From Candidatus Methylacidiphilum fumarolicum (GTDB taxonomy: Bacteria; Verrucomicrobiota; Verrucomicrobiia; Methylacidiphilales; Methylacidiphilaceae): DNA of 64,000 bases. Both the position numbers and the translations under genes were made by a program. The stretch lies in the NCBI RefSeq assembly GCF_949774925.1, contig NZ_OX458932.1, forward strand, positions 1,302,001 to 1,366,000. The letters run 5' to 3'. Positions 31,470 to 60,413 of this stretch are shown here, one piece after another (position 1 is the first letter of the stretch; every line of letters starts with the position of its first letter). Below the pieces are notes generated by a model that was not told the origin of the DNA, did not search any database, and saw only the letters and a list, made by a program, of their open reading frames with translations.

Positions 31470-32213
31470 CTATCTGTACCACGCATACCATTCTACTTTA
31501 AATTTCTCGTCGATTTTCCAAACATTTTCAAATTGCCATCGTACTTTTCCTTTTTCTAACCGATACCCTTTTGGATAAATAGAGAAAAAGCCCCCATAGA
31601 TCCATTGCATATAGAAAGAAGAGTTTGTTTTACCAATTGCTGGTATTGATCGAGCAATCCCTGAAAGATCAAAAGTAAATGAAATTTCATCGAATGGTGG
31701 GGAGCCACTACCAGTAACTCCAACATTGTTTATGTACTCGAAAGAATCTTTTGTAGCAGCGGTAGGCAATACAAGAAATTCAGCCTGCAAAATGGTTTTC
31801 GCTGTTTTGTTTTTAGGCCAATAGATATCCGCTGCCCAAAAATATTGACAGTTGTGTTTTGTTTTTACATAGAACCAATTCCACTGGCTGATCTGTTTTC
31901 GAATGATAGGAATAGCGATTCCATCAACCCAATATTTCATCCATAAAGCTGGAAATCTTGGGTCCTCTTCGAATATTGGAACATTTTTTTCCCAATGCTC
32001 GTAATCATGGGTATGCACCTCATATTGTTGAGTAAAAATCACATGAGCTTGTAAAGTCCCAGGTTGGTTTGGATTAGGTAAAAGAATAAGTTGAGCGTAA
32101 CTGTCCAATCGACTCTTATGAAAAGATCTTTCTAAGGTCTGCTCAAAGGCTTTGCAACAAAAACATAAAAAAAATAAAGAAATTAAAGATAGAGTCTCTT
32201 TTTGAACAATCAT
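31470..32213 (-). CDS. Exported protein of unknown function
   Basis: A hydrophobic N-terminus (residues 4-22, LSLISLFFLCFCCKAF) acts as a signal peptide. The 247-residue protein is rich in Trp, Tyr and Phe, with segments such as WNWFYVKTKHNCQYFWAADIYW, suggesting a beta-rich envelope protein. It has no family I recognise. It lies 22 bases after the gene at 32236 on the same strand and is the last of the pilus-like series, so a part in that machine is likely but not shown. Confidence 0.55.
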   Translation of the reverse strand: MIVQKETLSLISLFFLCFCCKAFEQTLERSFHKSRLDSYAQLILLPNPNQPGTLQAHVIFTQQYEVHTHDYEHWEKNVPIFEEDPRFPALWMKYWVDGIAIPIIRKQISQWNWFYVKTKHNCQYFWAADIYWPKNKTAKTILQAEFLVLPTAATKDSFEYINNVGVTGSGSPPFDEISFTFDLSGIARSIPAIGKTNSSFYMQWIYGGFFSIYPKGYRLEKGKVRWQFENVWKIDEKFKVEWYAWYR

Positions 32214-32235
32214 TAAAAAGAATATTTTCCATATT

Positions 32236-32892
32236 TTACGATTTTCTTCTCTGCTCTTTTGAATTCATTTTGATTTTAAGAACTTTAAGCTTTTTATGTA
32301 CTTGCTTTGATGTCGCTGCTACCAAAGGTCCTTTTGGTCTGTTTGATTTAATGCCGTGTGAAAGACCATGAGCAGTAGCATGCAATTTAGCTTTAAAGAC
32401 ACCATTGTTTTCAACTGATTTAAGGTCATTCACTCTTCGATTCTTTTTCTGAGTATCCTGAGTATAAAGAGAAGGCAAAGAATTTTTCATTCCACTCTCT
32501 TTTCTTTTAACTTCAAATATCTTTTCTTTTGTCAACAGCTTGTACCCATTAGCCTGTGAGGCTGTTTTAGCCATTAAAATAGGATCGGTAGCATAAAAAA
32601 CTGCACTCACTCTGCCTTCTACTGATTTCTTGGGGATGTAATTGCATTTTGCCCGTTGAGCCATAGCCACAAGAAAATCGTTTAGAGACATGTCAAAAAT
32701 CACGTATGGTTTATCATCATCCAGAGAATTATTTTGCAGCATTTCCTCTCCAGGGGTTAAATCCCTTTTTTTAAATCCTATATCGATATCCAAAGCGTTG
32801 GAAGAAAATGATGATTCTGGTGGCTCTTGAGCAAGGCAAAGAGAGAGATAAAAACAGGAAATCACAAAAAAACTAAGACTAGCTCTTTTCAT
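32236..32892 (-). CDS. Exported protein with secretin N-domain-like segment
   Basis: The signal peptide ends near residue 21 (SLCLAQ). Residues about 62-120 read VIFDMSLNDFLVAMAQRAKCNY then KSVEGRVSAVF and the ILMAKTASQANGYKL stretch, the pattern of the STN/N0 domain of secretins and TonB receptors. The rest is basic and low in complexity; the secretin barrel is missing. It could be a PilQ-like partner that has lost its pore, or an adaptor. It follows the PilP-like gene by 37 bases. Confidence 0.5.
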   Translation of the reverse strand: MKRASLSFFVISCFYLSLCLAQEPPESSFSSNALDIDIGFKKRDLTPGEEMLQNNSLDDDKPYVIFDMSLNDFLVAMAQRAKCNYIPKKSVEGRVSAVFYATDPILMAKTASQANGYKLLTKEKIFEVKRKESGMKNSLPSLYTQDTQKKNRRVNDLKSVENNGVFKAKLHATAHGLSHGIKSNRPKGPLVAATSKQVHKKLKVLKIKMNSKEQRRKS

Positions 32893-32929
32893 GATGTTGA
32901 AAAATATTAAAAAAAATGTGTAGTAAGGG

Positions 32930-33589
32930 TTATCTCTTTAAAGAATTATAAATCTGGATCTCCCCATAAACACCATTTTCGTCCATTACTACCCTTGGCC
33001 AAGGAATTCTTACTTCAACTCCTGCTTGATCTTGCAGAATAAGAGCATTGCTTTCGATAGAAAGAACTTTAATTTTTTGCAATTGATTTAAAGTTCTTAA
33101 TAAAAACACATCCCCAGGATGAAATACTCGGTTTCCAATGATAACTTCCTTGCCTTCTTGAAATCCTCGAATTGGTATACTTGAAGCAAGATCAGCAAGG
33201 GAATCTTTTGGATTATCCGTTGATGATCCAGTTAAAAATGTTCCTTGAACAGGGAGACCAAAAGCGTCAACGCCATTCGCAGGGAGAGGAACAGGCTTTT
33301 TGGAAGTCAAAGGAGAAATATTTGAATGGGAAATTTCATTATAGAATTGATCGTATTGCGAGTCATATGCCTCGATGGGATCAGTTTTTCTTATTAGTAT
33401 TTTTCCTTCATCTAGTGTCTTTGCTAATAAGAGGATAAAAGCTCCTAAAGGTATTAAAAATATTAAGGGATGAGCTGACAAAAAACTCCAAATGGGTAGG
33501 GGAAATTTAGGAATCCAGGATTGAGTGCCAATAGGCTCATGATTATTTTTTAAGAGAAGGAAAAGGCGAAAGAAACTGAATTTTCTCAT
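32930..33589 (-). CDS. PilP-like inner-membrane protein (tentative)
   Basis: One transmembrane helix at about 38-58 (HPLIFLIPLGAFILLLAKTL), a Pro/Ser linker, then a small C-terminal domain (about 150-215) with PGDVFLLRTLNQLQKIKVLSIESNALILQDQAGVEVRIPW. That last part resembles the beta-domain of PilP/GspC-type proteins, but it is a pattern guess. The start overlaps the preceding PilO-like gene by 47 bases. A later start would fall inside the membrane helix. Confidence 0.45.
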   Translation of the reverse strand: MRKFSFFRLFLLLKNNHEPIGTQSWIPKFPLPIWSFLSAHPLIFLIPLGAFILLLAKTLDEGKILIRKTDPIEAYDSQYDQFYNEISHSNISPLTSKKPVPLPANGVDAFGLPVQGTFLTGSSTDNPKDSLADLASSIPIRGFQEGKEVIIGNRVFHPGDVFLLRTLNQLQKIKVLSIESNALILQDQAGVEVRIPWPRVVMDENGVYGEIQIYNSLKR

Positions 33590-34118
33590 TGGTTTTCTCC
33601 ATGGGTTTTAATGGAATCATTTTTGATTGGGATTGTTCAAAGCTATTGCGTTTGTAAATGAATTCACAGTTTAGAGCTCCAGCATTCAGATTAATAGAAG
33701 GAGGAGTCAGAACAATCGATACTGGAGTAAAATCGGGGAGTTCATCGGAGCAAAATTCTAAAAACTGAACTATTGCTCCAGATCTCGCTTCGGCTCTTAT
33801 GCCAATCCCCATTGGGTCATGAAAAATGCTTAATAGTCTAAAATCGTTTCTTTGCCTTTGAAATCGAGACAGGACATCAATCAATATGGTTTCTGTGTTT
33901 TGCTTTACCCTTGATTCATACCATATTTTTGAATCTCTAGCTTTTTTTTCTTGTTTAACAACCCTCTGAATATAATTTTGTGCTTGTTCATATTCCTTTT
34001 CCATATTCAGCTTTTTGCTTGTTTCCTGTTGAACATAACTAATGAGTAACTCTGAAAAAAACCAGGCCAGAGCCAATAGACAAATAAAAAAAGAAACTCT
34101 CAGAATGAAATTTTTCAT
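33543..34118 (-). CDS. PilO-like bitopic protein (tentative)
   Basis: N-terminal membrane helix at about 7-28, a coiled coil (30-75) and a small alpha/beta periplasmic domain (about 78-155), which is the PilO/GspM layout at 191 residues. Sequence motifs for PilO are weak, so the call rests on shape and on its place between PilN-like and PilP-like genes. The start overlaps the end of the upstream gene by 4 bases (ATGA), showing coupled translation. Confidence 0.5.
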   Translation of the reverse strand: MKNFILRVSFFICLLALAWFFSELLISYVQQETSKKLNMEKEYEQAQNYIQRVVKQEKKARDSKIWYESRVKQNTETILIDVLSRFQRQRNDFRLLSIFHDPMGIGIRAEARSGAIVQFLEFCSDELPDFTPVSIVLTPPSINLNAGALNCEFIYKRNSFEQSQSKMIPLKPMEKTNEKIQFLSPFPSLKK

Positions 34119-34744
34119 CGCAACTCTTCTTTAGAAAGAAAGCAAGTCAACGTCGCTCTTATTTGCTCCTTTTTTTCTTTGGGCAGTTGAATATTGGAAA
34201 ATTCGAATTTTATTTTTTTCCCCACACTCTTTTCAAACGCCAGAGAAACAAGAGCACAGTAAAAACCCAAAGCTTCCATGCTATTTGGTTCTTCAGAATG
34301 AACCTTCACGGTGCACCTAATCCTATGAGAAGTATTAAGCAATTCCATATGGAATTGCTCAATCTGTAGTCCAGGAACTGCTGAAAAACAGACAGCAGCA
34401 ACAAGATTGGCTGGATAGATTTCGTTAATAATCTCTTTGTGAAATCGATCATTCCACAAAAGCAGCTTTTCAATGTTTTCTTTTTCACGTAGAATTTTTT
34501 CTTCTTCTTTGAAATTGGCCTTCCAAGGATAATTTTTTAAAATCGTAAAGATTTGAATAATCCGATACAAAAAGATCGTTGACAAAATGATTACAAATAA
34601 GTAGCCGACAATATTTTCGATTCCTTTCCGTCTATTATTTTTAGTTCCGATCGAAGTGGTTTTGTTCTGTTCTTTTCTTATGGAAAGCAAAATATTATTT
34701 TCTTTAGTTTTATTCTCTCTCTCTATTGGTTTCATTTGATTCAT
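34115..34744 (-). CDS. PilN-like bitopic protein (tentative)
   Basis: A cytoplasmic tail of about 45 polar residues, one membrane helix at about 46-68 (NIVGYLFVIILSTIFLYRI), a coiled coil with a LLWNDR segment, and a periplasmic ferredoxin-like domain. This is the usual PilN layout, though the tail is short and lacks a clear PilM-binding motif. No pilM is seen. It is followed by the PilO-like gene with a 4-base overlap. In pili PilN, PilO and PilP form the inner-membrane ring. Confidence 0.5.
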   Translation of the reverse strand: MNQMKPIERENKTKENNILLSIRKEQNKTTSIGTKNNRRKGIENIVGYLFVIILSTIFLYRIIQIFTILKNYPWKANFKEEEKILREKENIEKLLLWNDRFHKEIINEIYPANLVAAVCFSAVPGLQIEQFHMELLNTSHRIRCTVKVHSEEPNSMEALGFYCALVSLAFEKSVGKKIKFEFSNIQLPKEKKEQIRATLTCFLSKEELR

Positions 34745-34774
34745 CTTTATTGTAAGGCGATTTGTTTTTACTCT

Positions 34775-35173
34775 TCAATTTTTGGGTAAATAGAGATTGC
34801 TTAAGGTAAGCCAATATTTTCCTTCTGAATAAAAAACGACACCGGTTGCTGGAACAAAAGAAGATTTGGAATTTAATCGGATGGCCTCCACAATATATCT
34901 AGGAGGCAATGTTTGGGGAAAAACTCTTTTGGCTCGAAATTCGGTTCCTATCGGTAAAAGAATTCTCTTCGCATAGATGAGCGGACTGGAAAGCATAAAA
35001 CCTTCTTTCGATGGAACAACTCTTAATTGGGAAGCAGAAAGCAAATAATCGATCTTTTGGCATTCTATGTTTTGAGGAAAACTCGACAAATAAGAAGACT
35101 GAATAGAGCATCCAGTATAAAAGAGATTAAAGAAAAAAAATAAACTCAATCGATTGATAATTATTTTTCCCAT
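34775..35173 (-). CDS. Small lipoprotein
   Basis: 132 residues with a hydrophobic start and a lipobox-like FYTGC, so C22 is likely lipid-modified. The mature part resembles a beta-rich domain (LPIGTEFRAKRVFPQTLPPRYIVEAIRLN). The function is not known; the place at the head of the pilus-like series suggests a pilotin or outer-membrane partner. Divergent from the RDD gene at 35241. Confidence 0.5.
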   Translation of the reverse strand: MGKIIINRLSLFFFFNLFYTGCSIQSSYLSSFPQNIECQKIDYLLSASQLRVVPSKEGFMLSSPLIYAKRILLPIGTEFRAKRVFPQTLPPRYIVEAIRLNSKSSFVPATGVVFYSEGKYWLTLSNLYLPKN

Positions 35174-35240
35174 CTCTTTTTTATTAGGTCAGTTCAAATT
35201 GAAAAATGGCCGACCTATTTAATAAAAAGAAAATTTTGTA

Positions 35241-35798: not shown

Positions 35799-35838
35799 TC
35801 TCTTATCAGAAGTAGCGAACTACAATAAAATAACTCAT

Positions 35839-36741: not shown

Positions 36742-36852
36742 CTTGAATTTCTTTATTGAAGTTTTTTTAAAAAAAATCTTTTATATCCTCTTTCCAAATT
36801 TAAAAAGCAACCTGTAACGATGGAAAATAGTCTAATCAGCAATTAAAAAACC

Positions 36853-37026
36853 ATGAGAGGAAAAATCGGACAATTTCTCTTTGATGCAATGATGACACTT
36901 CTCATTGCTATAGCCATAGATCGATTCTGCCCAGAACCATTGCGAGGTTGGTGCAGAAACGGATGGCAGATTATAGGAAACGCTATGGAAGAAGTCGTAC
37001 ATTGGATTGGAAGGCTATTTCATTGA
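36853..37026 (+). CDS. Small hydrophobic protein (57 residues)
   Basis: The frame runs from ATG 36853 to TGA 37024-37026, product MRGKIGQFLFDAMMTLLI... with a membrane-like segment at residues 7-22 and a Trp-rich amphipathic tail. There is no clear ribosome-binding site. The last 7 bases overlap the convergent sigma-factor gene. The composition is that of a real small membrane protein, but conservation is unknown. Confidence 0.35.
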   Translation: MRGKIGQFLFDAMMTLLIAIAIDRFCPEPLRGWCRNGWQIIGNAMEEVVHWIGRLFH

Positions 37027-39416: not shown

Positions 39417-40334
39417 ATGAACAAAAGTGTTGATCCTTTTTATTCCTTCTCTAAAGAAGACCACGTTTCAAGTTTGATACTTCCAGATGACTATATTATT
39501 ACGGATATTGCTGCTATAAGAGTGGTAGAATGTGCAGTCCATGCCATGGGGGAGGGGAGTGCTCTTTCTGCGGTGTTGTTGGATGGTCCTCCTGGTATTG
39601 GGAAAACGTTCTTGGGTAAGGCAGTTGCTAAAGCCATTGGGGCAAGACATATGTTGTTTCAATTTTTTCCTGGATGTGGAAAAGAAGAGCTGCTGCGAGA
39701 TAAATCCATCGATGGAACACTGGTTCCTGGTATCATTCCTCTGTCTATAACTTCTTCTATAGAAAACAAAACGGTACTCATTCTGAACGAACTAGATAAA
39801 GCCGATGTTTCCGTTGACAGTTTTTTACTCGATTTTATTAACGAATCTCAACTATTTGTCCCTCAGTTGGGAGGCGAATTGAAGGCTAACAATTCTAACC
39901 TTTTAATTGTAATCACAAAAAATGATCTACGAGATGCTACGGAAGCTTTGTTAAGAAGATGTCGGGTTATCTACATGAACTGGCCCTCTGTGGAAATGGA
40001 AACAAAACTCATCAAAATGTACAATCCATGGGCTACAGAAAAATTTTGTGAAATCTTTATAAATGCCGCCAATCAACTGAGAAGGCATCCTGGTGTAAAG
40101 AAAAAACCTTCCCCGCCAGAGCTTGTTCGATTGATAAGCGACTGTTGGCGCATTCGCCATCAACAGATGACTCTTTTAGAATGGAGTCAATTTTTGCTAA
40201 CCGGACTGCTTCCTTTACCTCAAGATAGAAAGTATCTAGATCAAAACCCCATGGCTTTAGCCTCCGAAGTAAGAAATCTCCTTTCAGAAATTAATGATCT
40301 TTGCAGAATCCGCTTTAATGGAATACCTGAATAA
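39417..40334 (+). CDS. MoxR-type AAA+ ATPase
   Basis: Walker A GPPGIGKT (57-64), Walker B VLILNELDKAD (120-130), sensor-like VITKND and the arginine RRCRV follow the MoxR/AAA_5 order. MoxR proteins act as chaperones or switches for partner proteins with VWA domains, but no VWA protein is next to it. It is divergent from the small gene at 39397 and stands within the element's control block. Confidence 0.8.
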   Translation: MNKSVDPFYSFSKEDHVSSLILPDDYIITDIAAIRVVECAVHAMGEGSALSAVLLDGPPGIGKTFLGKAVAKAIGARHMLFQFFPGCGKEELLRDKSIDGTLVPGIIPLSITSSIENKTVLILNELDKADVSVDSFLLDFINESQLFVPQLGGELKANNSNLLIVITKNDLRDATEALLRRCRVIYMNWPSVEMETKLIKMYNPWATEKFCEIFINAANQLRRHPGVKKKPSPPELVRLISDCWRIRHQQMTLLEWSQFLLTGLLPLPQDRKYLDQNPMALASEVRNLLSEINDLCRIRFNGIPE

Positions 40335-40396: not shown

Positions 40397-41744
40397 TTAT
40401 CTTTCCCTACCTCTCTTTTCCATCGATTTTCCTATAAAGTTTGGATTATAGAAGTAAAAAGGGGAGGGGTGGGCTGTTTTTTCTATCTCTTCAATGATTT
40501 TTTCTGGGTCTTTCTGCTCTACTTTTCTATTATCCCTACGGATTCTTAGCTCTTCATAGATTTTGGCAACCGTTTCTTCTACGCTGAGGGCTCTTTTTGA
40601 CTGAGAAGCTTGCTGTTCTTCTTCTTTTCTTTCTTTATCTGGCTCAGCTCTTTGCTCTGATACTTTTTCGATACCCACTCCTTGTACTGGCGGCATTGCT
40701 TTTTCTTCGGTCCTTTCCCTTTGTTTTTCCTTCTGCAGTTGTTCCTCTTCTACTGCTGCTTTTGCGGCTCTTAGGTATTCATGCTTGTAAAGAGGAGCAG
40801 GTTGAGACACTCTATCGATCAACTCTTGAGCCCTGTCCGAAGCTATTCCTCCAAAAAACCCACCCATACCCATTCCTAGCAAGCCTCCCGCTATTGTCCC
40901 TGGTCCAGGAAAGATCATCGAGCCTAGGGTTGCCCCTGCTGCCCCTCCAACACTACTTCCAATCAGTGGTAGCCCTATCCTTGCCACCGCCTTGCCTATA
41001 GCCTCTCCCCACCGGCCTGTTTCCTTCCCTTCAGTTACGGCAGCTTTTGCTTCTTCACCCACGCCTAAAACTGTTGCAAGCGGACCTAGCCAGCCTAAAA
41101 CCTTTGGAATTTTTCTTCGGGGCTTAATTTTTTGGGGATCATAATTCTTTTTTGCATATATATCCTCTTTAGCATGAAAAAGGCGAATCATGGCCTTTGT
41201 AACATCATTTATATTAAATACCATTCTTGTAGCCCTCGCCGTTGGTTGTGAAGGATCCCCAATGACTATGTGGGGATGAAGAAACTGAAGCCAAGGATAC
41301 TCAAAGGTTCTCCCCACTCCAAAGCGAGGATAGCCTTCATACCTTTCTCCTAATTTCCTCAGTTTTTCCTCAATTTTATTGTCAACATACTTGGTTTTTA
41401 TTTCATGAACTGCCTTGGGCATAAGCATAATATTTTCTCTGCCATTGAGGTTTTCTAGCAATCCTGAAAGAAACAAGGGGATGATATGATCCAATTCCCA
41501 GCCTTTGGGAGGATGATAAGTTATCTTCCCAGATGGGGTTTTCTCTACCATTTTGTCTATAGCCCTCTGGGGGATGCCTAACTTCCTTAAGTCTTCTTGA
41601 TGATAGGTATGTAGCTCTCTGAGAAGGCTTGGGCTTCAGGTTATTTTCAAAGTCCTCCCGCAGTTCTCTTGTTCTTTCTGGGCTTACTCTTTGGACCTTG
41701 CCGAGCCAAACCGCTTCCTCCCATGAAAGTTTCTTTTCACTCAT
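40397..41744 (-). pseudogene. HNH-like nuclease with glycine-rich membrane segment, split by a frameshift
   Basis: The first part (ATG 41744, MSEKKLSWEEAVWLGKVQRVS...) runs in one frame. A second frame is open from about 41625 and reads LRELHTYHQEDLRKLGIP, AIDKMVEKTPSGK, then HPPKGWELDHIIPLFLSG, NLNGRENIMLMPKAVHEIKTK. DHI plus the N and H that follow form an HNH pattern. A shift near 41620-41640 would join the parts. Alone, the second part starts at ATG 41551 with the HNH core intact. Residues about 190-245 (from 41551) are Gly-rich and membrane-like (VGGAAGATLGSMIFPGPG). The C-terminus is charged. It is 58 bases after a double SUKH gene. Confidence 0.6.
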
Positions 41745-41802
41745 TGGTCATGTCCTTTTTCTTTTCAATAGGCCATGACCTATGGGGCGGTGGCACGAAG
41801 GA

Positions 41803-42846
41803 TCACTTATTCATATAAAAAATCTCTTTTAAGAAGGAACAAAGATCAGGATATTCCTCTTTAAGATCATGAAAATAGTGATGAAGGGTAAAGAAGCAGT
41901 GGGTACTCATATCATAGGCGCACGTAATTTCTAGAAAATTCCTATGCTGTCCAAAGATGAAATAATTAGGATTAAAGAACATTTCTTTTGCTTCCTCATC
42001 GTCCCATTTTAACACCCTGTAGTAGCGATTATGAGGAATAAGAAAATCCTCATTAATAAAATAGAGCTCCTCATCATGTTCTTCGCTCTTTAGCCATTCC
42101 ACAGGAGAGTCTTCGTCAGGGATATGAAAAAAAGTGTATAAATCACTCCTGAACCCATTGCTGAAAGCCAAAAATTTCTTATAAAACTCTGGAATGGGCA
42201 CTCCAAATTCCTCGCGGAACTGTCGGTCTGCTTTTTCAATGGCTTTGAAAGAGGCCGGCGGAAGAAAGGAGGTTTCGTAGGTGTACTCAAAAGTACTCCT
42301 TATTTTTTGAATCAGCTCAATCTCCCTGGGCTCCAAAAGCCTTGGCGCCGTATAAAGATGACGGAAAAAATACTCTACTTCCTCTTTGAGTAGCGAATAG
42401 AGATCCTCATAAAACACTTTGATCCCTTCCGGGGGGATCTTTTTTATCCCCTTGGGATAAATTACCCCCAAATAACTAGGTCCCAAGTAGTATATATAAT
42501 AACGCTGGGATACCCCATCGTAGTTATATTTCCGGTCCTCACTCCTGCCTAATCGTAGGTGATACGGAGGAAGTAAGTCTGGAAAACGAGCTTTCAGCTC
42601 TGAGTTTGTGTCAAGAAGGATATCCGCACTATAAAGCCAACCATAGCCAAAACTAATGAACTTGGCATAAGCCAGAAAGTCTTTATAGTCCTGAGGTAGG
42701 GCTACCCCAAATGTCTCTTGGCAGGCTTTGTCTAACTGTTCAATAGCCTCAGGAGAGGCCGGAGGACCTAATTCGATATAAGGATGCTCTTTTTGACAGG
42801 ACTTAAGCTTTTCCAGTAAAGCTTGGAACTCTGGAGTAATTGGCAT
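41803..42846 (-). CDS. Double SMI1/KNR4 (SUKH) domain protein, probable immunity protein
   Basis: 347 residues from ATG 42846, with an AAAGGGAAATCT site ahead. Two SUKH-like domains are seen: the first with SPEAIEQLDKACQETFGVALPQDYKDFL (about 30-60), the second with SFKAIEKADRQFREEFGVPIPEFYKKFL (about 205-235). SUKH proteins are the usual immunity partners of nuclease toxins in polymorphic toxin systems. The next gene on the strand is an HNH-like nuclease, which supports this. A start further up at 42903 is possible but has a basic, odd N-terminus. Confidence 0.72.
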   Translation of the reverse strand: MPITPEFQALLEKLKSCQKEHPYIELGPPASPEAIEQLDKACQETFGVALPQDYKDFLAYAKFISFGYGWLYSADILLDTNSELKARFPDLLPPYHLRLGRSEDRKYNYDGVSQRYYIYYLGPSYLGVIYPKGIKKIPPEGIKVFYEDLYSLLKEEVEYFFRHLYTAPRLLEPREIELIQKIRSTFEYTYETSFLPPASFKAIEKADRQFREEFGVPIPEFYKKFLAFSNGFRSDLYTFFHIPDEDSPVEWLKSEEHDEELYFINEDFLIPHNRYYRVLKWDDEEAKEMFFNPNYFIFGQHRNFLEITCAYDMSTHCFFTLHHYFHDLKEEYPDLCSFLKEIFYMNK

Positions 42847-42903
42847 AGATTTCCCTTTCTTTTTTCTGTTTTTTTTATGCGCAGCACAATAAACTACCAT
42901 CAC

Positions 42904-48148: not shown

Positions 48149-50278
48149 CTATCTAGGGATAAGGTGAAGCAGAAATTGAACCCTTTTTATACTTTTTTTC
48201 CCAAACCGAGGATGAAGTTTCACAATCGCTTCTCCATCTTTAAGTCTAGAAAAGATATACGGAGGATAAATTGGCTCTTTGCGGAATTGGATTTGAAAAT
48301 CTTGATGGGCGATGGGTTTTGATAAATCAAAAAGAATTTCTTGTGTTCCTCTATACAGATAACCGTCACTTCTTTCAATTTCACCAAAAAGCCTAGAGGC
48401 ATAATCATTGGTTTCCATATGAGGGTTTCTTAGAAAAATGATCGTTGCTGTATTTGTTAGAATAGCTTCAATTTCAGATTTAATCATTCGGGATTCCAAA
48501 ACAGCTAAAGACTGAAAAGAAATAATACAACCACATTTATATTCTCTTGCCTTATCAAAAAAACCTCTTTCTCCAGTCCAATCTCCCGTGGTTGCCACTG
48601 TAGCAAATTCATCGCAGAGATAAATTACAGGTCTTTGTTGGTTAATTGGTCTGCCATCAATTTTTAGTTGCTTTCTTGAAAGGACTGACCGAAAGAAATC
48701 GAGTTTTAATAGTATGCTTGCGACCTTTGCTGCATTTCTCCATCTAGAAAAATTCATATCCAATACAAGGATCTTTCCCTGATCAATGATATCTGCAAAA
48801 TTGAGGGTTCCTTTGGGACTTACCATTCGATCAAAAGGCGGCTGAGTCATCAGTGATGTGAGAACCGAAACTGTCATACCAATGGAACCTGAGGTTCTTT
48901 CATTGGCAATGTTTAGATATTCACCTTTGAAATAAAGGTACACTTCATCTGAATAGGGATCCTTTCCATAATGATGGAGGATTTTTTCGTAGGAACTTAA
49001 CCACTTCTGCAAAGGACCATATTCTGGAGCAGGGATTTCAATATTGTTTATCAAATTAGATAAGGCCAACAATTGATCTATCTCATCAATAAGACTTAGG
49101 GAGCTTTCCCAAAGTTCAAGGTTGGGAAGAACTCCAAATTTAAAAGATTTTAAAAGTTTTTTTAGTCGATCTGTTAGTTCCGAGCACACTAAAAGAAGAT
49201 TGTTGTGAAATTCATCATTTTGAGAATAAGAAAAAAAAGCAGCACGGAAAGAACGCAAACCGTTGAATAAAGATAAAATGCTAGAAGAACCAAAATGCGC
49301 TTTCGAAGCTTGCTCACCATTTATATATTTTAAAATTTTTTCTGCTTCAATTTTTTTTAATAGTCTCTTTTCCCTCTCTACTTCATTTTCATTTTCCGGC
49401 GCATTTTTATTCGCAACATATATGTCTTTAATTTTCTTTTTCCATTCTTGGATCAGATTTTCGATCCTATTGATAAGTCGGTTGATTTTTTCCAATCCCT
49501 GAAAAACTTTCTCTTTATTCTCTCTTAAAACACTTTCTGCTGAAGATATTTGGCTTTGGTTGGCAGGCTGTCCTCGGTCCATGACAAGAAGATTAAGAAG
49601 AGGAAAAGACATTGGAGGAGGACATTCTTCAATAATCCCGTTTCGAGCAGCCATAACAAGTTCTCGATGAAGTTGAAAAATGGAGTTAAACAGTTTCCTT
49701 CCGGCAGCATCCCAGAAGGGATCTTGGCTTGTCTTCCCATCATCAACTGCTTGTTTTAAAGTAATCATTAAATCAGCAAGCTCTGATGGAAGGGAATCAG
49801 GATTATTAAATGGATCTAGAGCAAGATCATGATCAGGTCCAAAAAGCAAAACATCTTTTTCTCTATCATATTTCTTGGCAAGCCATAATAACATTTCAGT
49901 CAGTTCACATTTTCCATCCATAATAAATCCCGAAAATTTTAATTCTGCTTTTTCTTTAGAATCTCTAAGGTCAGTTGCTCTAAAAAGGCTTTCTAAAACT
50001 TGAGTCAGAACAAATCGAGTTTTCCCAGCACCAGATCCACCCAGAATGCTCATGTGTGAAAATAAGTCTTTGATTGTTAGGGGATTACCAGATTCATCGG
50101 TTAGCTCCTGTGGTTCTGTTTCAACTCGAAAATACAATTTTCCAAAATCCGAAGAACTTATTGGATGCCGTGGCCAATAATTTTCTTTGACTTTAGCAGA
50201 AAGAGATTCTCTTGGTTTTACATATTGTGGGCCTATCGATCCTACTAAACTCTCTCTGATTTTTTGGAATAGTTTCAT
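48149..50278 (-). CDS. VirD4/TraG-type coupling ATPase
   Basis: Coupling proteins bring DNA or protein cargo to a type IV secretion channel. This 709-residue ATPase has Walker A GGSGAGKT (80-87) and Walker B VIYLCDEF (about 549-556), then the FFDKAREYKCGCIISFQSL segment typical of TraD/VirD4 helicase-like domains. The usual two N-terminal membrane helices are absent. A long insert (about 200-430) with helical character is present. It begins a five-gene minus-strand operon. Confidence 0.8.
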   Translation of the reverse strand: MKLFQKIRESLVGSIGPQYVKPRESLSAKVKENYWPRHPISSSDFGKLYFRVETEPQELTDESGNPLTIKDLFSHMSILGGSGAGKTRFVLTQVLESLFRATDLRDSKEKAELKFSGFIMDGKCELTEMLLWLAKKYDREKDVLLFGPDHDLALDPFNNPDSLPSELADLMITLKQAVDDGKTSQDPFWDAAGRKLFNSIFQLHRELVMAARNGIIEECPPPMSFPLLNLLVMDRGQPANQSQISSAESVLRENKEKVFQGLEKINRLINRIENLIQEWKKKIKDIYVANKNAPENENEVEREKRLLKKIEAEKILKYINGEQASKAHFGSSSILSLFNGLRSFRAAFFSYSQNDEFHNNLLLVCSELTDRLKKLLKSFKFGVLPNLELWESSLSLIDEIDQLLALSNLINNIEIPAPEYGPLQKWLSSYEKILHHYGKDPYSDEVYLYFKGEYLNIANERTSGSIGMTVSVLTSLMTQPPFDRMVSPKGTLNFADIIDQGKILVLDMNFSRWRNAAKVASILLKLDFFRSVLSRKQLKIDGRPINQQRPVIYLCDEFATVATTGDWTGERGFFDKAREYKCGCIISFQSLAVLESRMIKSEIEAILTNTATIIFLRNPHMETNDYASRLFGEIERSDGYLYRGTQEILFDLSKPIAHQDFQIQFRKEPIYPPYIFSRLKDGEAIVKLHPRFGKKSIKRVQFLLHLIPR

Positions 50279-52760: not shown

Positions 52761-52784
52761 AATAAATTAAATTACAATTTTTGT

Positions 52785-53486
52785 TTATCGAATCTTTTCC
52801 TGTATTTTCTTTTGTTCCAGTTGAGGATCTGAGTGGTAAATTCCTTGGATTGGCGAAGGATTTAAGCCTTCAGGATTAAAAATTGGTGCCTCTTCCTTTT
52901 CTTTTTCTAGAGACTTCTGAGTTTGTTTCCCATCAAATGCCTTCTGCCAGAATTCTTGTTGTAGAAAAGGCCCTTTTCCTATTCCAGGAATATTCCAATA
53001 GGAAGGTACGGAATGGGTTTCCGTTGTTTTTTGATAAACCGTATTATTAGCTTTTTCACCAATTCTTTTCCAATCCAAAGTGCTTAACCTTTGGTCATTT
53101 CTTTCTAGACACCTACAGGTACACATTCCATCCCATTTTTGAGGGTTTGAAGCTGAATCTATTCCTTGGTTTAGCTGTTCTTTAGCAGAAGCTCTAGTCA
53201 GACCTATCATATTGAGTGTCTGAGTATTGGATAAGGTTCCAATAGAATTCTTTGAGGTAGAGTGTTGCTGGACAGGATGTGATCTATGATCGCTTTCTTG
53301 GTTTCTGTTTGTTGTTTTGTTTGTTCTACCATCCATACTATCCGTAGGAGATAGGTTCATTGGAATATGATCAAATGATTGAACATGCGCCGAAGGCTTT
53401 TCTTCTCCCCCCTGATGTGCGGTTAATTCTACTCGTTTGTTTTGTTCGTTCATGGTATATCCTCCTTCTAAATCTTTATCGCGCAA
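52785..53486 (-). CDS. Disordered Gln/Asn-rich protein of the secretion region
   Basis: 233 residues, mostly Gln, Asn, Ser, Thr and Glu, expected to be disordered. It has a Cys pair region (MCTCRCLE, about 118-125). No family is recognised. Its start overlaps the end of the glycine-rich gene at 53476 by 11 bases, so the two are translated together. Confidence 0.45.
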   Translation of the reverse strand: MRDKDLEGGYTMNEQNKRVELTAHQGGEEKPSAHVQSFDHIPMNLSPTDSMDGRTNKTTNRNQESDHRSHPVQQHSTSKNSIGTLSNTQTLNMIGLTRASAKEQLNQGIDSASNPQKWDGMCTCRCLERNDQRLSTLDWKRIGEKANNTVYQKTTETHSVPSYWNIPGIGKGPFLQQEFWQKAFDGKQTQKSLEKEKEEAPIFNPEGLNPSPIQGIYHSDPQLEQKKIQEKIR

Positions 53487-54402: not shown

Positions 54403-54447
54403 ACTTATATTGTTAGGCGATAACCCGGAAAAAATTTAGATAAAAGA

Positions 54448-56505
54448 TCAACTGAATACGCTAGAATATGAGCGAGAAGAAAGTAGGAGCAAAGCTTCCT
54501 CTTTGGATATCACTCCTGTAAAAAAGAGCTCTGTAGCTTGAATAGCTAATGGCTTAAATCCTCTACTTTCATTATGAGCTCGTATTCGGTTAGGGCTCGC
54601 ACCATTTTCAATTAAAGAAATAATTTCACTATCGAATGGAAGAAGTTCAAGAATCGGCATCCTTCCAGCCGTCCCTGTTCCTCTACATGCTTGACAACCA
54701 CTGGCTTCTGCAACCACAGGCTCTGCAACCTGACAATTGGGAAAATATTTTAAATCATCTTTCGTGGCTTTTCTTATTTTTTTGCAATAAGGGCATAATT
54801 TTGAAACGAGCCTTTGGGAAATAACCAATTTCATAGCATAAGATACAGCAAGCCTATCAATACCAAAGCTCTGAACCATTCTTTCTATTACTCCCACTGG
54901 ATCAGTTGCATGAATAGAGGAAAATACAAGATGGCCAGTTAATGCTGAATCAATAGCAATCCGAGCACTTTCCATATCACGTATTTCCCCAATCATAATA
55001 ATATCTGGATCTTGTCGAACTATTCCTCTCAGAGCAGTGGCAAATGTAATTCCTGCTTTTTCTCTAACTTCGATTTGCATGGCATCAGGAAAATGTTTTT
55101 CAACAGGATTCTCAACGGTAATTATTTTTTTTCTAGGGGAACTAATATGCTGTAGCATAGCATAAAGAGTAGTTGTTTTTCCACTTCCTGTTGGTCCTGT
55201 GGAGACAAACATCCCCTGTCCATTCGCTAAAAACCACAAAAGAAAAGAATGCTCCATTGGCGGCAAATTCAAATCATCAAGGGTTGGAATTCTAGAAGAA
55301 AAAATACGAATGGCGGTATGCTCTTCCATCCCTTGGCCAATTACAATACTATACCTTTGGTCATAACGAATCCCTTTGTATTGATAACTGCTACTTCCAT
55401 CTTGAAATATCCCTTTTTGATCAGCAGCCATATTTCCAAAAAGCTTAATTCGGTCCAATAGAATCTGATATTGAAGTCTGCTTAAGGGAGCTTGTTCATA
55501 ATAATCCCCGTCTATTCGGAAACGCACTCGTACATTGTGTTCTTTAGGTTCTAGGGAAATATCGCTGGCTCCCATATCAATGGCACTGCTCATGATAGCA
55601 TGATAAAGAGTGATTCCTGTTTCGTTAAAATGACCTAAATCTACTTGGGGCCATTCCCTTACATGAAGAGGATCTCCTGGTAAAATTCCTTTAATTTTGT
55701 TTTCTTTTTCAACCCGAAGAAATAGTTTTTGGAAATAACCAGGAGAACAAATCACAAGCTGGATTTTTGTTTTTAGAGCTTCGATCAATTGATCTTCTAG
55801 TTTAGAATTAAAGGCTTCTGGTGTAATAACCCAAGAGCAGGTAGGTGACTTCCTCCATAAAAGAGCGTTATCAAATCCTTTTATTGCTGCACAAGCTTGC
55901 ACAGCTCCTTCTGGAATAACAATTTTTGGGTCGGAACCAAAAAGAATTTGTTCAAGAATATCAGCTACTCTTGGATACAATGAGGATTCTAACCTTAATA
56001 GTTTTAACCAACTTTCCTTATCTTCTTGCTCCCAATCAGGAAACCCTTCTACCCCTCTTTCTCTTTTTAGAAAAAGATTGGCCAAATCGCTAGGATGTAA
56101 GAGATAAAAAATTCTTGCTTTATCTTGGAAATTAATTGCGGCAAAAATTTCAACCTCATGTAAGCGAAAAGGATTGAGAATACCGATGACATAAAAAGGA
56201 CTGTCCCATAAAATTATCGCATTAAAATCTTTTTCTAACTTTTTGCCTGCAGAATAGAAAGCCGAAGGGGGCAAGGGATGATCTCTATCAGCAGGATATA
56301 GGGGTGGCCATCCATTACGATTGGTGAATGATTCTGACCACCTTTCCCATGAAAAAAGGGTAGAAAATCGTAAGATCGCTTTTTCTAGATCAAAGAATGG
56401 GTCGGATTTTCTCCATTCTTTAAGATTTTCTGCAACTATCAGCCGTTCCTTGAGAAGAAAGTTTTCAAAATCGTTTTGAATAGGAAGACAATGTTTCATT
56501 TGCAT
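54448..56505 (-). CDS. PilB/GspE-type secretion ATPase
   Basis: Assembly ATPase of the type II/IV pilus class. Walker A GPTGSGKTT is near 436-444, followed by the Asp and His boxes (ENPVEKHFPDAMQIEV, IRDMESARIA, LTGHLVFSSIHATDP). The zinc site is C571, C574, C604 and C607 (CPYC, CQAC), as in PilB and GspE rather than PilT or VirB11. The N-terminal 290 residues replace the usual MshEN domains and are not recognised. It lies divergent to the VirB-like operon, 60 bases away, and is the only assembly ATPase seen here. Confidence 0.9.
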   Translation of the reverse strand: MQMKHCLPIQNDFENFLLKERLIVAENLKEWRKSDPFFDLEKAILRFSTLFSWERWSESFTNRNGWPPLYPADRDHPLPPSAFYSAGKKLEKDFNAIILWDSPFYVIGILNPFRLHEVEIFAAINFQDKARIFYLLHPSDLANLFLKRERGVEGFPDWEQEDKESWLKLLRLESSLYPRVADILEQILFGSDPKIVIPEGAVQACAAIKGFDNALLWRKSPTCSWVITPEAFNSKLEDQLIEALKTKIQLVICSPGYFQKLFLRVEKENKIKGILPGDPLHVREWPQVDLGHFNETGITLYHAIMSSAIDMGASDISLEPKEHNVRVRFRIDGDYYEQAPLSRLQYQILLDRIKLFGNMAADQKGIFQDGSSSYQYKGIRYDQRYSIVIGQGMEEHTAIRIFSSRIPTLDDLNLPPMEHSFLLWFLANGQGMFVSTGPTGSGKTTTLYAMLQHISSPRKKIITVENPVEKHFPDAMQIEVREKAGITFATALRGIVRQDPDIIMIGEIRDMESARIAIDSALTGHLVFSSIHATDPVGVIERMVQSFGIDRLAVSYAMKLVISQRLVSKLCPYCKKIRKATKDDLKYFPNCQVAEPVVAEASGCQACRGTGTAGRMPILELLPFDSEIISLIENGASPNRIRAHNESRGFKPLAIQATELFFTGVISKEEALLLLSSRSYSSVFS

Positions 56506-56565
56506 AATTTGTGCGTTTGTTGGCGCAAAATTTTTCTACAACTGCCTATTTATACTTTGATTATT

Positions 56566-57354
56566 ATGAGTTTTGTTTTTCGAAACCCTCATGAGGTCAA
56601 TCCTCCTGAAAGAGAAAGGGATGGATTATACGGTGTTCAAAGAATAAGGCTGCCCGCTTTTTTAAGAACCATATGGGAATGGAGGGAAGATCTAGCTGTT
56701 GTAAATAGTTGGCTTCTGCTTTTCTGCTTATTACAAGCTATAGCAATCATATTTCTTGGCATTGCACTTTATCTGAAGATTCATGAGCCAACTCGAATGA
56801 TTGTCGATCTGCCAGGATATGTTATTTGGCCAAAAACTGAAATATTTAAATTAAATGAGAACATGATTTTTTCTTTCATTCATGAAGTGGGAAAAGCTCT
56901 TTATGAAGTAAGCCCTGGATCTTATTCCCTTTCAACCGTTGCCGATCGTGTTTCTCCCAAAGTCGCTGCCGCATTTAAAGAAGTCTATGTTCCACTGGCG
57001 ATGAACGGCGGAAATGGAGAAAGAATTGTATGGAATTTGAGAGAAGTGCGTAAATACAACTCTCCAAAGTTGCCCAGCTATTTAATAGTTGCCGGAAAAT
57101 GTGATCGAGCTCGTTACAAAATTCAAAATGGTATGCCAGATGTCACCAGTGAATCAGTTGTTATTCTCTTTTATATCAGTGAAGGCCCCAACACACCGAT
57201 GAATCCTTTAGGATTAAGACTCGAAGGAGTAGAAGAGTTTCAGGGAGCAGAAGCAGAAAAAATCTGGTCTTATACAGTACCAATAGTGAGTTCGCCTGAA
57301 ATATTGAAAAAAGAACCTATTTTACCTTCAAAGACAAGAGGTCCTAAAAAATGA
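56566..57354 (+). CDS. VirB8-like inner-membrane protein (tentative)
   Basis: One membrane helix at about 40-60 (VVNSWLLLFCLLQAIAIIFLGIALYL) after a basic cytoplasmic tail, then a periplasmic domain of 190 residues. That is the VirB8/IcmL layout, and the place in front of VirB9-like and VirB10-like genes fits. Direct motif evidence is weak. I chose ATG 56566; a longer start at 56476 would overlap the divergent ATPase gene. The stop overlaps the next start by 4 bases (ATGA). Confidence 0.55.
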   Translation: MSFVFRNPHEVNPPERERDGLYGVQRIRLPAFLRTIWEWREDLAVVNSWLLLFCLLQAIAIIFLGIALYLKIHEPTRMIVDLPGYVIWPKTEIFKLNENMIFSFIHEVGKALYEVSPGSYSLSTVADRVSPKVAAAFKEVYVPLAMNGGNGERIVWNLREVRKYNSPKLPSYLIVAGKCDRARYKIQNGMPDVTSESVVILFYISEGPNTPMNPLGLRLEGVEEFQGAEAEKIWSYTVPIVSSPEILKKEPILPSKTRGPKK

Positions 57355-58322
57355 AAAGAAAACTGTTTGTCTTTTTGATGCTACTGTTTGTCTCCATTGC
57401 TAGAGGGCAACAAATCGATCCGCTTGACTCTAGGAATGCTCTCAATACATCGTTTCAGAACGGAAACATAAATTCAAATTCTTCACCTCAAATTGCAGAA
57501 GAAGATGCCCCACCTGTTATTATCAATGGTAAAAAGGCAGAAGAATTATCAGAAGATGAACTGCTTCAGTTTCTTCAACAAAAAGTTAGAATGATTCATC
57601 AGGAAGACGGTCAGGTAGAAATTCTTCGAATTTCTCCAGGATATCCACTAGCCATAGAATTTTCAGAGCCAATAGTTGGATGGGAGATTGGAGATGGTAA
57701 ATTGATTCATATAAGCAAACAGGGTGCAAAACTAATACTAAGATCTCTCGATACTACGGGTGATACATCTCTTTTAGTTTTTTTCCAAGGAAACAGAACG
57801 AGAATTTATCATATTTTTGTAGAATCAGATTTTCAAAAGGCATTGAGCCTTATTCGAGTTAGCCCCTTTAGTAAAAACAGTTCTTTAATGCCCACACAGC
57901 TTGTTGCTTATTCCATAGGAACAGATGAAGATATCTCTTCAGTCAAAAGTGTGGCTCAAATTATCGCTAACTATGATCTTTTGGTTAGAGAAGGTTCTTT
58001 AAAGCCGATGGATGTGAGCAGAATAGCAATATTTAAACGCTCAAAACTTACTGGTTTTGATTATTATTATCTTTACAGATTTTCTTCTGGTCTATTAGCG
58101 ATTTCGTTCGCATGGAAAAATCTTTATCCATATCGTGTAAGGCTAGATGAGTCGACTTTAAGGGTCGCAATTGGGCAAAGTCGCTTTATACCCGATTACG
58201 TATCGTTAAATAAGTTAATAGTACCTCCTGGAGGCATGACCAGCGGCTTTTTGATTATCTCTAATCCTCCGTATTCTCCAGATCAACCTTTTTCTTTAAT
58301 CTGGAAAGAAAGTAAAAAATGA
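57351..58322 (+). CDS. VirB9/TraK-like exported protein
   Basis: Signal peptide at 1-19 (RKLFVFLMLLFVSIARG). The N-terminal domain (about 90-165) reads EILRISPGYPLAIEFSEPIVGWEIGD and later LDTTGDTSLLVFFQGNRTRIYHIFV, the pattern of VirB9/TraK-type proteins, where a predicted beta-domain is followed by a C-terminal one. VirB9 forms the outer-membrane core with VirB7 and VirB10. It is coupled by 4-base overlaps to the genes on both sides, ATGA at 57351 and 58319. Confidence 0.6.
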   Translation: MKRKLFVFLMLLFVSIARGQQIDPLDSRNALNTSFQNGNINSNSSPQIAEEDAPPVIINGKKAEELSEDELLQFLQQKVRMIHQEDGQVEILRISPGYPLAIEFSEPIVGWEIGDGKLIHISKQGAKLILRSLDTTGDTSLLVFFQGNRTRIYHIFVESDFQKALSLIRVSPFSKNSSLMPTQLVAYSIGTDEDISSVKSVAQIIANYDLLVREGSLKPMDVSRIAIFKRSKLTGFDYYYLYRFSSGLLAISFAWKNLYPYRVRLDESTLRVAIGQSRFIPDYVSLNKLIVPPGGMTSGFLIISNPPYSPDQPFSLIWKESKK

Positions 58323-59521
58323 AAAAGTTTCTTAAAAATAAATTTTTTCTAACCATTATAGGCATTTTATCTGTGGCCACTTTCTATTATATCAACCCCA
58401 TTCATCTTGCCTCAGAGTTGATGTATGGGATTATTGAGTCTGCTAGGTATACCTATTTTAGAGGACAAGCTCTACCTTTAGGTTCAGAAAAAAAGATAAA
58501 GAGTGAGGCTCAAGAACAAAGGAAGAACATCATTGTTCAAAAAGGGGAGAAATCCAAGCTAAAGGCGGTTATTCCCGAAGAAATTGTACAGGCTAAAGAA
58601 AATATTCCAGAACCAACCCTTCCTCCTACCCAAGTTAAAGCCCCTCCAACTTCTAAAGACAAAAGTTCCCTTGGAGTTTTAGAACAACAACCTCCTAACA
58701 GACTTGCTCCTGTTCCTCGCGGTATAGTCGATCAGAAAGCCTTAGCTAGGGATTCTCAAGCTTCAGATCAACCAGTGATCATAAAATGGGCTAGAAAAAG
58801 ATATCTTTTCCGAAATCTTTCTCTTTCAGCCCTTGAAACTAATGGAACTGAGGATAAAGGAGGCTCCGAAGGACCATTTGCAAATATTGATATTAATTCG
58901 TTCTCACCACAAGGCGAGATGATAGAAGCAGCCTTGGTAAATTCTGCATTTAGTTCTAACACAGATGTCGATGTTGTTGGGGCAGTTTGGCTTCCCTTTT
59001 ACTTTCAAGGGAATCTTCTTCTTGAGCCTGGTGATCGATTGATCGGCACTTCAGCCGGAGGTACAGCGTTAAGAGATAGAATGATGGTCCATATTGACAA
59101 AATTATCTTTAAAGACGGTAGATCATTACCAATTCAAGGAGTCGCTCTCCATACTGATGGAACAGAAGGAATCAAAGGATACAGAGTTAGTGAATATGGC
59201 AAACAACTTTTAGGACCAATTTTAGCAGCCATGGGACAAGCTTTTCTCTACGCCATGGAATATCAATCCTTTAACTATTATATGTCTCCATATGGACTCA
59301 CTCCTTGGGGTCTTTATGGGCAGCCAGCTTACAATGGGGCAAAACAGGCAATGATGTTGGGTGGAATGTATGCAGGAACTAACGCGATGCAACAGATTAT
59401 GAACATTCTTGCTCAAGATATTGAGCAATATAAGCCTTATGTTTTTGTGCCAGCAGGAACTAGATTTAGGGTTTTTTTGAAGAGTTACATGGATATTTCA
59501 AAAGCTGATTATGGAAGATGA
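58319..59521 (+). CDS. VirB10/TrbI-like channel protein
   Basis: VirB10 spans both membranes of the type IV channel. The protein has an N-terminal helix (about 8-26), a proline-rich linker (about 90-125), and the C-terminal VirB10 domain: LLLEPGDRLIGTSAGG, RMMVHIDKIIFKDGRSLPI then QGVALHTDGTEGIKGY, ending in YKPYVFVPAGTRFRVFL. The GTS and RSLPIQGV stretches are typical of the family. It follows the VirB9-like gene by a 4-base overlap. Confidence 0.8.
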   Translation: MKKFLKNKFFLTIIGILSVATFYYINPIHLASELMYGIIESARYTYFRGQALPLGSEKKIKSEAQEQRKNIIVQKGEKSKLKAVIPEEIVQAKENIPEPTLPPTQVKAPPTSKDKSSLGVLEQQPPNRLAPVPRGIVDQKALARDSQASDQPVIIKWARKRYLFRNLSLSALETNGTEDKGGSEGPFANIDINSFSPQGEMIEAALVNSAFSSNTDVDVVGAVWLPFYFQGNLLLEPGDRLIGTSAGGTALRDRMMVHIDKIIFKDGRSLPIQGVALHTDGTEGIKGYRVSEYGKQLLGPILAAMGQAFLYAMEYQSFNYYMSPYGLTPWGLYGQPAYNGAKQAMMLGGMYAGTNAMQQIMNILAQDIEQYKPYVFVPAGTRFRVFLKSYMDISKADYGR

Positions 59522-59537
59522 ATCTATTCAAAACAGT

Positions 59538-60413
59538 ATGAATATAAAATTACATACACTTTGTGCTCTTGCTGTTTGTTTTGTTTTAGGTTGTGTTTCA
59601 CAGAAAAAAACAGCGATGCCAATTGATCCAGCGTTAATACAAAACAGTTACGACTATACTAAACCATATGATGTTTATGACAGAAGCAAACCTGCATATG
59701 TTCTTCCGGTTATAAATACTGGATGGGCAAAAGCGAAAGTAGATCCTAAAACAGGACAATGGATTGGTGGACATTATGTAGGCACCGTTATTGATCCTGG
59801 GCACTGGGCTACTCTTGAAGAGGCTGAGCTCTCTGGAAAACCTTACATCAGAGCGGATAATGGACAAATGATTGTTCCTAATCCCAACGAAGACAATCCT
59901 CCAAGCAAAGATAAAGGAGTAGAAATAGATCTTGTTAGTATGAAAAATAGGTTAGAAAAAATGGAATCTACCTTGGCAGAATCCATTCCTCCCTCTGAGT
60001 ATAAAGAGGCCGCATTAATGAATGCGTTAGAAAAAAAATCACAAAGCAAAAAATACAGTCCAACCAATTTTCCTTCCATTGTAGTAGGAGATCCAGATAT
60101 GGAAACCATCGCTCAACCTTCAACCTTTAACGTAACTAAGACATCATCCTTTATTACTGTTGGGGAAGAAGAACCCGCCATTAATAAAAATATGAAAAAT
60201 CAAGATTTAAAAAAACATAATTCCCCATTAACTACGATAGAAGTTCCTCTTGGAAAACCAGGACAGAACTTTGTCGTTAAAACTCCAAATGGTGGATTTG
60301 TGGTGATCGAATTTTTACCTAATCGAAAAGTTAAAGTCTTATACAATGGTCATACAGTAGAAAAGATTGCTCCGCCAGATCAAGATGTTGTAGTGATTTC
60401 TGTGCCACAATAA
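59538..60413 (+). CDS. Secretion-region lipoprotein
   Basis: From ATG 59538 the signal peptide ends in a lipobox, FVLGC, with C19 lipidated. The mature part has YDYTKPYDVYDRSKPAYVLPV and WIGGHYVGTVIDPGHWATL repeats. A C-terminal part holds VVIEFLPNRKVKVLYNGH. It is the fourth gene of the VirB-like series. It may stand for a VirB7-like or other outer-membrane lipoprotein, though it is large at 291 residues. The last 34 bases overlap the convergent parB gene. An ATG at 59511-59518 inside the VirB10 gene is less likely. Confidence 0.6.
   Translation: MNIKLHTLCALAVCFVLGCVSQKKTAMPIDPALIQNSYDYTKPYDVYDRSKPAYVLPVINTGWAKAKVDPKTGQWIGGHYVGTVIDPGHWATLEEAELSGKPYIRADNGQMIVPNPNEDNPPSKDKGVEIDLVSMKNRLEKMESTLAESIPPSEYKEAALMNALEKKSQSKKYSPTNFPSIVVGDPDMETIAQPSTFNVTKTSSFITVGEEEPAINKNMKNQDLKKHNSPLTTIEVPLGKPGQNFVVKTPNGGFVVIEFLPNRKVKVLYNGHTVEKIAPPDQDVVVISVPQ

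Follow-up and report, generated by a model that had tools for sequence, protein, structure and literature searches.

Can a type IV secretion system (T4SS) work with a motor and inner-membrane proteins from the type IV pilus and type II secretion system (T2SS) families? The question is raised by a gene cluster of the acidophilic, methane-consuming bacterium Candidatus Methylacidiphilum fumarolicum that begins in the 64,000-nucleotide window analysed here, i.e., bases 1302001-1366000 of a single-contig genome of 2,476,671 bases (G000). A preliminary description of the window had listed VirB8-, VirB9-, VirB10- and VirD4-like genes beside a PilB/GspE-type ATPase and a minus-strand PilN/O/P-like block, with neither VirB4 nor VirB11, and had suggested that a PilB-type motor could act with a PilNOP-like ring in a mixed apparatus. 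The idea of a mixed apparatus, with VirB4 added, is supported by the genes, their conservation and one predicted fold: the ATPase and the PilN/O/P-like genes share one conserved cluster with the VirB/VirD4 genes, but the machine is neither VirB4-less nor driven by PilB alone. We suggest that the cluster encodes a vertically kept chromosomal T4SS variant of Methylacidiphilaceae, in which a GspE-type motor replaces VirB11 and PilN/O/P-like accessories are added, and that its probable function is to deliver toxins to competing bacteria; we would give this explanation an even chance.

A GspE/PilB-type ATPase in a VirB/VirD4 cluster

The cluster covers about 42 kb, from 31470 to about 73120, with its right end past the window edge, and 35 genes were traced in it; coordinates are given in Table 1. 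It was compared with several genomes of Methylacidiphilum (G000-G004), of sister genera (including G006-G008) and of the wider order. The reported lack of VirB4 is an edge effect. As had been anticipated, parts lie beyond the edge, and the search of the right flank found the end of VirB6 and, directly to its right, two VirB2-like genes, a VirB3-like gene and VirB4, the last 3.5 kb beyond the window. A VirB4-less machine is thus ruled out. The Pfam model PF03135 matched nothing genome-wide, because it covers the N-terminal domain only and misses this diverged VirB4.

The VirB10-like and VirD4-like genes are borne out by family models. The VirB8-like and VirB9-like genes are present, while neither protein has a match in the family libraries; their names rest on the VirB8-VirB9-VirB10 gene order and, for VirB9, on a weak profile alignment. 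The start codon of the VirB8-like gene is uncertain, as its orthologues start about 30 residues later. The two VirB2-like proteins are homologous copies that match TrbC at E 1e-4 with 22.9 bits, below the curated cut-off of 27.9. VirB1 was not identified in the system. From its homologue in G014, the 622-residue secreted protein is possibly VirB5-like, and the 130-residue protein with three transmembrane helices is a possible membrane partner of VirD4, which has no transmembrane helix of its own.

The position of VirB11 is taken by an ATPase whose NCBIfam scores are 312 bits for GspE, 69 bits for DotB and 43 bits for VirB11. It has a CxxC..CxxC (C4) zinc site, and its earlier assignment to the PilB/GspE type is confirmed. 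In each of G000-G004, searched genome-wide, this ATPase is the only T2SSE-family protein, so the absence of a canonical VirB11 extends from the window to the genome. PilC/GspF (PF00482) and the secretin (PF00263) are both absent in G000-G008; for PilC/GspF, control genomes gave matches. Because both are absent throughout the family, no ordinary pilus or T2SS remains for the ATPase. A PilB that belongs to a separate pilus, the case named beforehand as speaking against a mixed apparatus, is ruled out in the same way. The genome lacks a further T2SSE ATPase, PilC/GspF and a secretin, and the PilO hidden Markov model (HMM) has no match in it; the ATPase and the PilN/O/P-like genes can thus not be strays of an ordinary pilus or T2SS.

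An unrooted tree places the ATPases linked to a T4SS, which come from four families, in a single clade with support 100/100, separate from the pilus-type PilB of the order. Its members from G020 and G024 are without the zinc motif. In other families of the order, ATPases of this clade adjoin VirB6-like and VirB5-like genes or other genes of the system, and in G014 the ATPase gene comes after the VirB6-like and VirB5-like genes. The sole T2SSE protein, the separate and fully supported clade and the neighbours in G014 support that the GspE-type ATPase serves the T4SS in the place of VirB11.

Conservation of the cluster

Gene order and orientation are the same in G002-G004 wherever the stretch is fully covered, and in G001 as far as the contig reaches. 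The neighbours are constant in Methylacidiphilum, a cytochrome c gene and a pdxH-like gene on the left and lpd-glnB-glnA on the right, and in the species compared the chromosomal site is fixed, not variable. A sister genus (G006-G008) has orthologous clusters in which the order of the 35 genes is largely kept, with small rearrangements. Since order and site are kept in Methylacidiphilum and orthologous clusters are found in the sister genus, the cluster does not look like a recent mobile element.

Beyond the family, a few further families of the order also have the VirB8-9-10 part, the VirB2/3/4 part and the ATPase, scattered over several sites. Among 289 genomes sampled across the phylum, the VirB9 profile matched Methylacidiphilaceae alone. 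Several more TrbI-type T4SS loci (VirB9-VirB10-lipoprotein; stretches L024-L033), distinct from the present system, occur in other members of the order, with up to five in G020.

The PilN/O/P-like run

The AlphaFold2 (AF2) model of the PilO-like protein of the minus-strand run has the best structural support. Its closest structures in the PDB are PilO 2rjz (Z 9.2), EpsM (Z 8.5) and PilO 5uvr (Z 8.4), with PulM and XcpY also at the top (Z 8-9), and the predicted fold is that of PilO/GspM, i.e., a transmembrane helix, a coiled coil and a circularly permuted ferredoxin-like domain. The PilO HMM PF04350 had no match genome-wide and does not detect even this protein. The PilP-like protein is modelled as a transmembrane helix, a disordered linker and a barrel (residues 137-203) with a predicted local distance difference test score (pLDDT) of about 80, against 58.7 overall. 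Its best structural matches are GspC 3oss (Z 6.0), GspB (Z 5.7), PulC (Z 5.2) and PilP 2ivw (Z 4.6), while Foldseek alone gave no convincing match; the resemblance of the model to the HR domains of these proteins is only moderate. The structure comparison proposed for the block 32236-35173 therefore supports the PilO-like protein and, more modestly, the PilP-like one, while the PilN-like protein is recognised by topology and the secretin N-domain by reading the sequence. Profile searches of the PDB with the PilO-, PilP-, VirB8-, VirB9- and HNH-like alignments gave matches at chance level only.

The run is kept within the cluster in two genera despite strong divergence. Orthologues of its secretin-N-like gene are found in G002-G004, G006-G008 and G005; in G005 this is the only gene of the block that was detected.

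Table 1. Genes of the cluster, in window coordinates; positions above 64000 lie past the right edge of the window
Feature	Position	Strand	Evidence and remarks
Predicted secreted protein, 247 aa	31470..32213	-	Left cluster end; same-place orthologues in G003, G004; relocated in G007, G008; no Pfam match
Secretin-N-domain-like protein without secretin domain	32236..32892	-	Last of PilN-O-P-like run; identity read from sequence, no Pfam match
PilP/GspC-like inner-membrane protein	32930..33589	-	AF2 model; one transmembrane helix, small beta-barrel
PilO/GspM-like protein	33543..34118	-	AF2 pLDDT 79.8; transmembrane helix, coiled coil, alpha-beta-beta-alpha-beta-beta domain
PilN-like protein	34115..34744	-	By position, topology and eye; one transmembrane helix, predicted alpha/beta domain
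Small lipoprotein-like protein	34775..35173	-	Heads PilN/O/P-like run; orthologues in G002-G004, G006-G008
MoxR/AAA_5-type ATPase	39417..40334	+	Pfam AAA_5 1e-11; kept in family; near ATPase gene in G020
HNH-motif, glycine-zipper toxin candidate	40397..41551	-	Compared with intact 446-aa paralogue of same genome
Double SUKH immunity protein	41803..42903	-	Pfam SMI1_KNR4 5e-8, two stretches
Secreted protein, 622 aa, possibly VirB5-like	44965..46833	-	No family-library match; homologue in G014 operon with VirB6-like and GspE-type ATPase
Protein of 130 aa, three transmembrane helices	47745..48137	-	Adjoins VirD4 and conserved with it
VirD4-like coupling ATPase	48149..50278	-	Pfam T4SS-DNA_transf 1e-10, TraG-D_C 5e-9
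Protein with C-terminal module shared with G003 toxins	52785..53486	-	Conserved cluster protein
Glycine-zipper protein, 308 aa	53476..54402	-	Conserved in cluster
GspE/PilB-type ATPase in VirB11's place	54448..56505	-	Pfam T2SSE 3e-84
VirB8-like	56476..57354	+	By position and single transmembrane helix; no family match
VirB9-like	57351..58322	+	Weak hhalign match (E 1e-4, probability 55%) to gene at VirB9 position in other T4SS loci
VirB10-like, TrbI domain	58319..59521	+	Pfam TrbI 4e-19; hhalign 99%
Lipoprotein 3' of VirB10	59511..60413	+	Kept with VirB8-10; lipobox in several orthologues
ParB-like regulator or partition protein	60380..61975	-	Pfam ParB_N 3e-26
Sigma-factor-like protein	61975..62952	-	Pfam Sigma70_r4 2e-5
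VirB6-like membrane protein	63111..64478	+	Window ends at 64000
Secretin-N-like protein	64502-65266		
Protein without assigned family	65344-66138		
Two VirB2-like proteins	66233-66577 and 66595-67071		
VirB3-like	67068-67475		
VirB4, 887 aa	67517-70180		TraC-F 1e-38, VirB4_CagE 7e-29, P-loop_TraG 3e-23
Conserved protein, 825 aa	70177-72654		
Lipoprotein	72614-73120		

Toxin candidates and immunity genes

The best clue to the function of the cluster is a toxin/immunity cassette at 40397-42903, to which the preliminary description made no reference. The N-terminal part of the toxin candidate lies in another frame (40397-41744), and an intact paralogue of 446 residues is found at 818 kb of the same genome. 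Four members of this toxin family share an HNH motif with invariant DH, N and H, a putative metal site. As in polymorphic toxin systems, an immunity gene adjoins the toxin and there are cassettes of orphan tips. G003 has a 599-residue version at a different place of its cluster, accompanied by three SUKH genes and two orphan tips of 165 residues, and another set far from the cluster. HNH/SUKH cassettes, with orphan HNH tips, are thus present within the cluster in two species, at differing positions. The last approximately 145 residues of the G003 toxins match the conserved cluster protein at 52785-53486, and a genome-wide search of G003 found this module in just three proteins, i.e., the toxins and the cluster protein. 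The 308-residue protein shows a weak, low-complexity profile similarity to the zipper region of the toxins (E 3e-4, probability 41%), on which we do not rely.

Related loci are seen elsewhere. Unlike the paralogue in L132, which is open, two HNH-tip copies of the window genome (40397-41744, and 1480-1879 of stretch L135) share a split into two overlapping frames; either common decay or programmed frameshifting could account for it. A second HNH-like protein, of 416 residues, adjoins a SUKH protein beside proA (contig C1 of G000, about 1022-1026 kb; L147, 1252-3182) and has a counterpart in the sister genus (L159); it is possibly another effector/immunity pair. Just left of the window lies a degenerate glycine-zipper remnant with stops (L138, 1501-1914), and G004 has an intact toxin locus at the same site, next to the same gene (L128).

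Proposed mechanism

In the mechanism that we propose, the counterparts of VirB2, VirB3, VirB4, VirB6, VirB8, VirB9, VirB10 and VirD4 would form the pilus and the channel, with the hexameric GspE/PilB-type ATPase standing in for VirB11. The bitopic PilN/O/P-like proteins could contribute a ring or collar in the inner membrane, bracing either the ATPase or the channel, without PilC or a secretin. The machine would most likely export proteins: VirD4 would pick the HNH-type nuclease toxins by a C-terminal signal, the toxins would be injected into rival bacteria, and the SUKH proteins would protect the producer. What we infer is that the parts make up a single physical machine, that the PilN/O/P-like proteins act as a ring, that the toxins are active, that their C-terminal module is a signal and that they are delivered. 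By analogy, protein delivery to competitors would be our favoured function, because in-locus and dispersed toxins, a shared C-terminal module and SUKH partners match the pattern of bacteria-killing T4SS. That the cluster is a natural hybrid of T4SS and pilus/T2SS, working as one antibacterial machine with a VirB4/VirB10 core, a GspE/PilB-type motor and a PilN/O/P-like ring in a cell with no other pilus or T2SS, is possible, at somewhat less than an even chance.

Several observations weigh against this explanation. In other families of the order, the partial regions that were read showed no PilN/O/P-like block together with the VirB genes, and the identities of the VirB8-, VirB9-, VirB5- and VirB3-like proteins are weak or positional. 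The toxin copy in the window is, from its reading frames, probably broken, and the HNH domain is a motif call for which Pfam HNH_3 reaches E 0.1 only. In G000 and G004 the C-terminus of the toxin only vaguely resembles the module that the cluster protein carries. The T4SS is also present in G001 and G002, which have no member of the HNH toxin family, so other substrates must exist if the delivery function is general.

Alternative explanations

The cluster could instead serve conjugation, as a DNA-moving machine that belongs to an old integrated plasmid or integrative and conjugative element (ICE). It contains VirD4, ParB-like and sigma-like genes, and a potential integrative plasmid was noted at Minf_1153-1199 by the authors of the M. 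infernorum V4 genome (PMC2474590). By gene number, this is at about 1.07-1.11 Mb of a genome of 2,287,145 bp, i.e., about where the G003 cluster lies (about 1.083-1.127 Mb); the overlap is an estimate, and on this ground it is probable that an element was already noted in this region. Against conjugation, however, the same housekeeping genes flank the cluster in the Methylacidiphilum species compared, and a 13-mer comparison of the borders gave no direct repeat beyond one 14-base match. No relaxase or integrase was found among the cluster proteins scanned, and the relaxase PF03432 is absent genome-wide, while other relaxase families were searched on the cluster proteins only. A recent ICE is disfavoured by the fixed site, and we regard a conjugative role as unlikely. 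A machine for DNA uptake, comparable to ComB, a type IV system of Helicobacter, would provide competence where the lineage has no type IV pilus. The genome has neither the motor platform of a type IV pilus nor a secretin, and the cluster is chromosomal and conserved. However, ComB-type uptake systems need no VirD4, and here a conserved VirD4 coupling protein is present; the toxin and immunity genes within the cluster also suggest export, and uptake seems to us improbable.

It is also conceivable that two neighbours are seen, an ordinary T4SS and remains of a pilus or T2SS (PilB, PilN/O/P and the secretin N-domain) kept for another task. The PilN/O/P-like run would fit this, as it has its own transcript, at least 9-10 kb away from the VirB operons, and did not turn up in other families, of which partial regions were read. 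Yet the block stays in the cluster across two genera in spite of its divergence, the ATPase, though not PilN/O/P, tracks the VirB genes in other families, and no pilin platform or secretin is left to serve. We consider two separate neighbours rather improbable.

Comparison with known systems

The class A VirB/VirD4 systems are matched in VirB4, VirB6, VirB10, VirD4 and lipoproteins, in putative VirB2 and VirB3 counterparts, and in the order VirB8-B9-B10, with VirB8 and VirB9 as candidates. The present cluster differs from them in the GspE/PilB-type ATPase instead of a canonical VirB11, in the PilN/O/P-like block, and in a VirB8 and VirB9 too diverged for the family models. In the bacteria-killing X-T4SS of Xanthomonadales the twelve class A subunits are complete, VirB11 among them, and the effectors carry an XVIPCD; typical of such systems are effectors within and outside the locus that have a C-terminal module in common and come with immunity partners (PMC6536674). 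Like the X-T4SS, the present system is chromosomal and shows no mobility genes; candidate effectors lie within the locus as well as elsewhere in the genome, next to cognate immunity genes, and some of them have a C-terminal module in common. Lacking a canonical VirB11, however, it does not have the full set of twelve subunits, nor is an XVIPCD demonstrated in its toxin candidates, with which no XVIPCD profile was compared. The X-T4SS also has a VirB7 with an N0 domain, of which the secretin-N-like proteins of the cluster may or may not be counterparts.

The type IVa pilus (PilB, PilNOP) and the T2SS (GspE, GspLMC) are resembled in the ATPase family with its C4 zinc site, the PilO/GspM fold, the PilP/GspC-like barrel and the gene order N-O-P-secretin N-domain. 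In contrast to both, there is here no PilC/GspF, no secretin and no PilM seen, and no other such system in the genome. In the class B Dot/Icm T4SS, DotB is a PilT-like ATPase; the present ATPase scores far higher as GspE than as DotB, and no DotF/PilO pairing or Dot/Icm set was found. A GspC/PilP-like subunit is already known from Dot/Icm, namely DotF (PMC8486379). SUKH arrays are typical immunity loci of polymorphic toxin systems (PMC3482391), and the nuclease-type toxin candidate, the SUKH immunity and the tandem orphan toxin-tip/immunity pairs all resemble such systems. However, the toxin domain is here N-terminal, the presumed delivery part is C-terminal, and there is the link to a T4SS.

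In the papers that we searched, this region was described neither as a T4SS nor as a GspE/PilNOP combination, and no GspE-type motor in a T4SS was found in the T4SS literature searched, the coverage of which is incomplete. Plasmid-borne GspE matches from Nitratiruptor, Aliiroseovarius and Legionella, considered as precedents for use in a T4SS, belong to ordinary T2SS or MSHA loci instead.

Other genes in and around the cluster

A second sigma-factor-like protein is encoded at 37020-38003. The two sigma-factor-like proteins and the ParB-like protein are conserved members of the cluster and may be dedicated regulators. At the left edge of the cluster there is an IS200/IS605-type transposase (TnpA-like and TnpB-like, 29348-31267), and TnpB-like fragments lie within it (43632-44427). 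In G002, two large genes of 1052 and 1013 residues, resembling a type III restriction-modification pair, are inserted at the left edge (joined reversed stretches L040-L042, 10435-16631).

Implications

How the T4SS is related to the type IV pilus/T2SS superfamily, and how far their parts are interchangeable, is an open question. In these bacteria, the only GspE/PilB motor and the only PilO-type protein of the cell are tied to a VirB4/VirB10 machine, which makes the question testable by simple gene removals. If the delivery of toxins is confirmed, antibacterial T4SS would extend beyond the Proteobacteria to an extreme acidophile, a setting as yet unexplored for contact killing.

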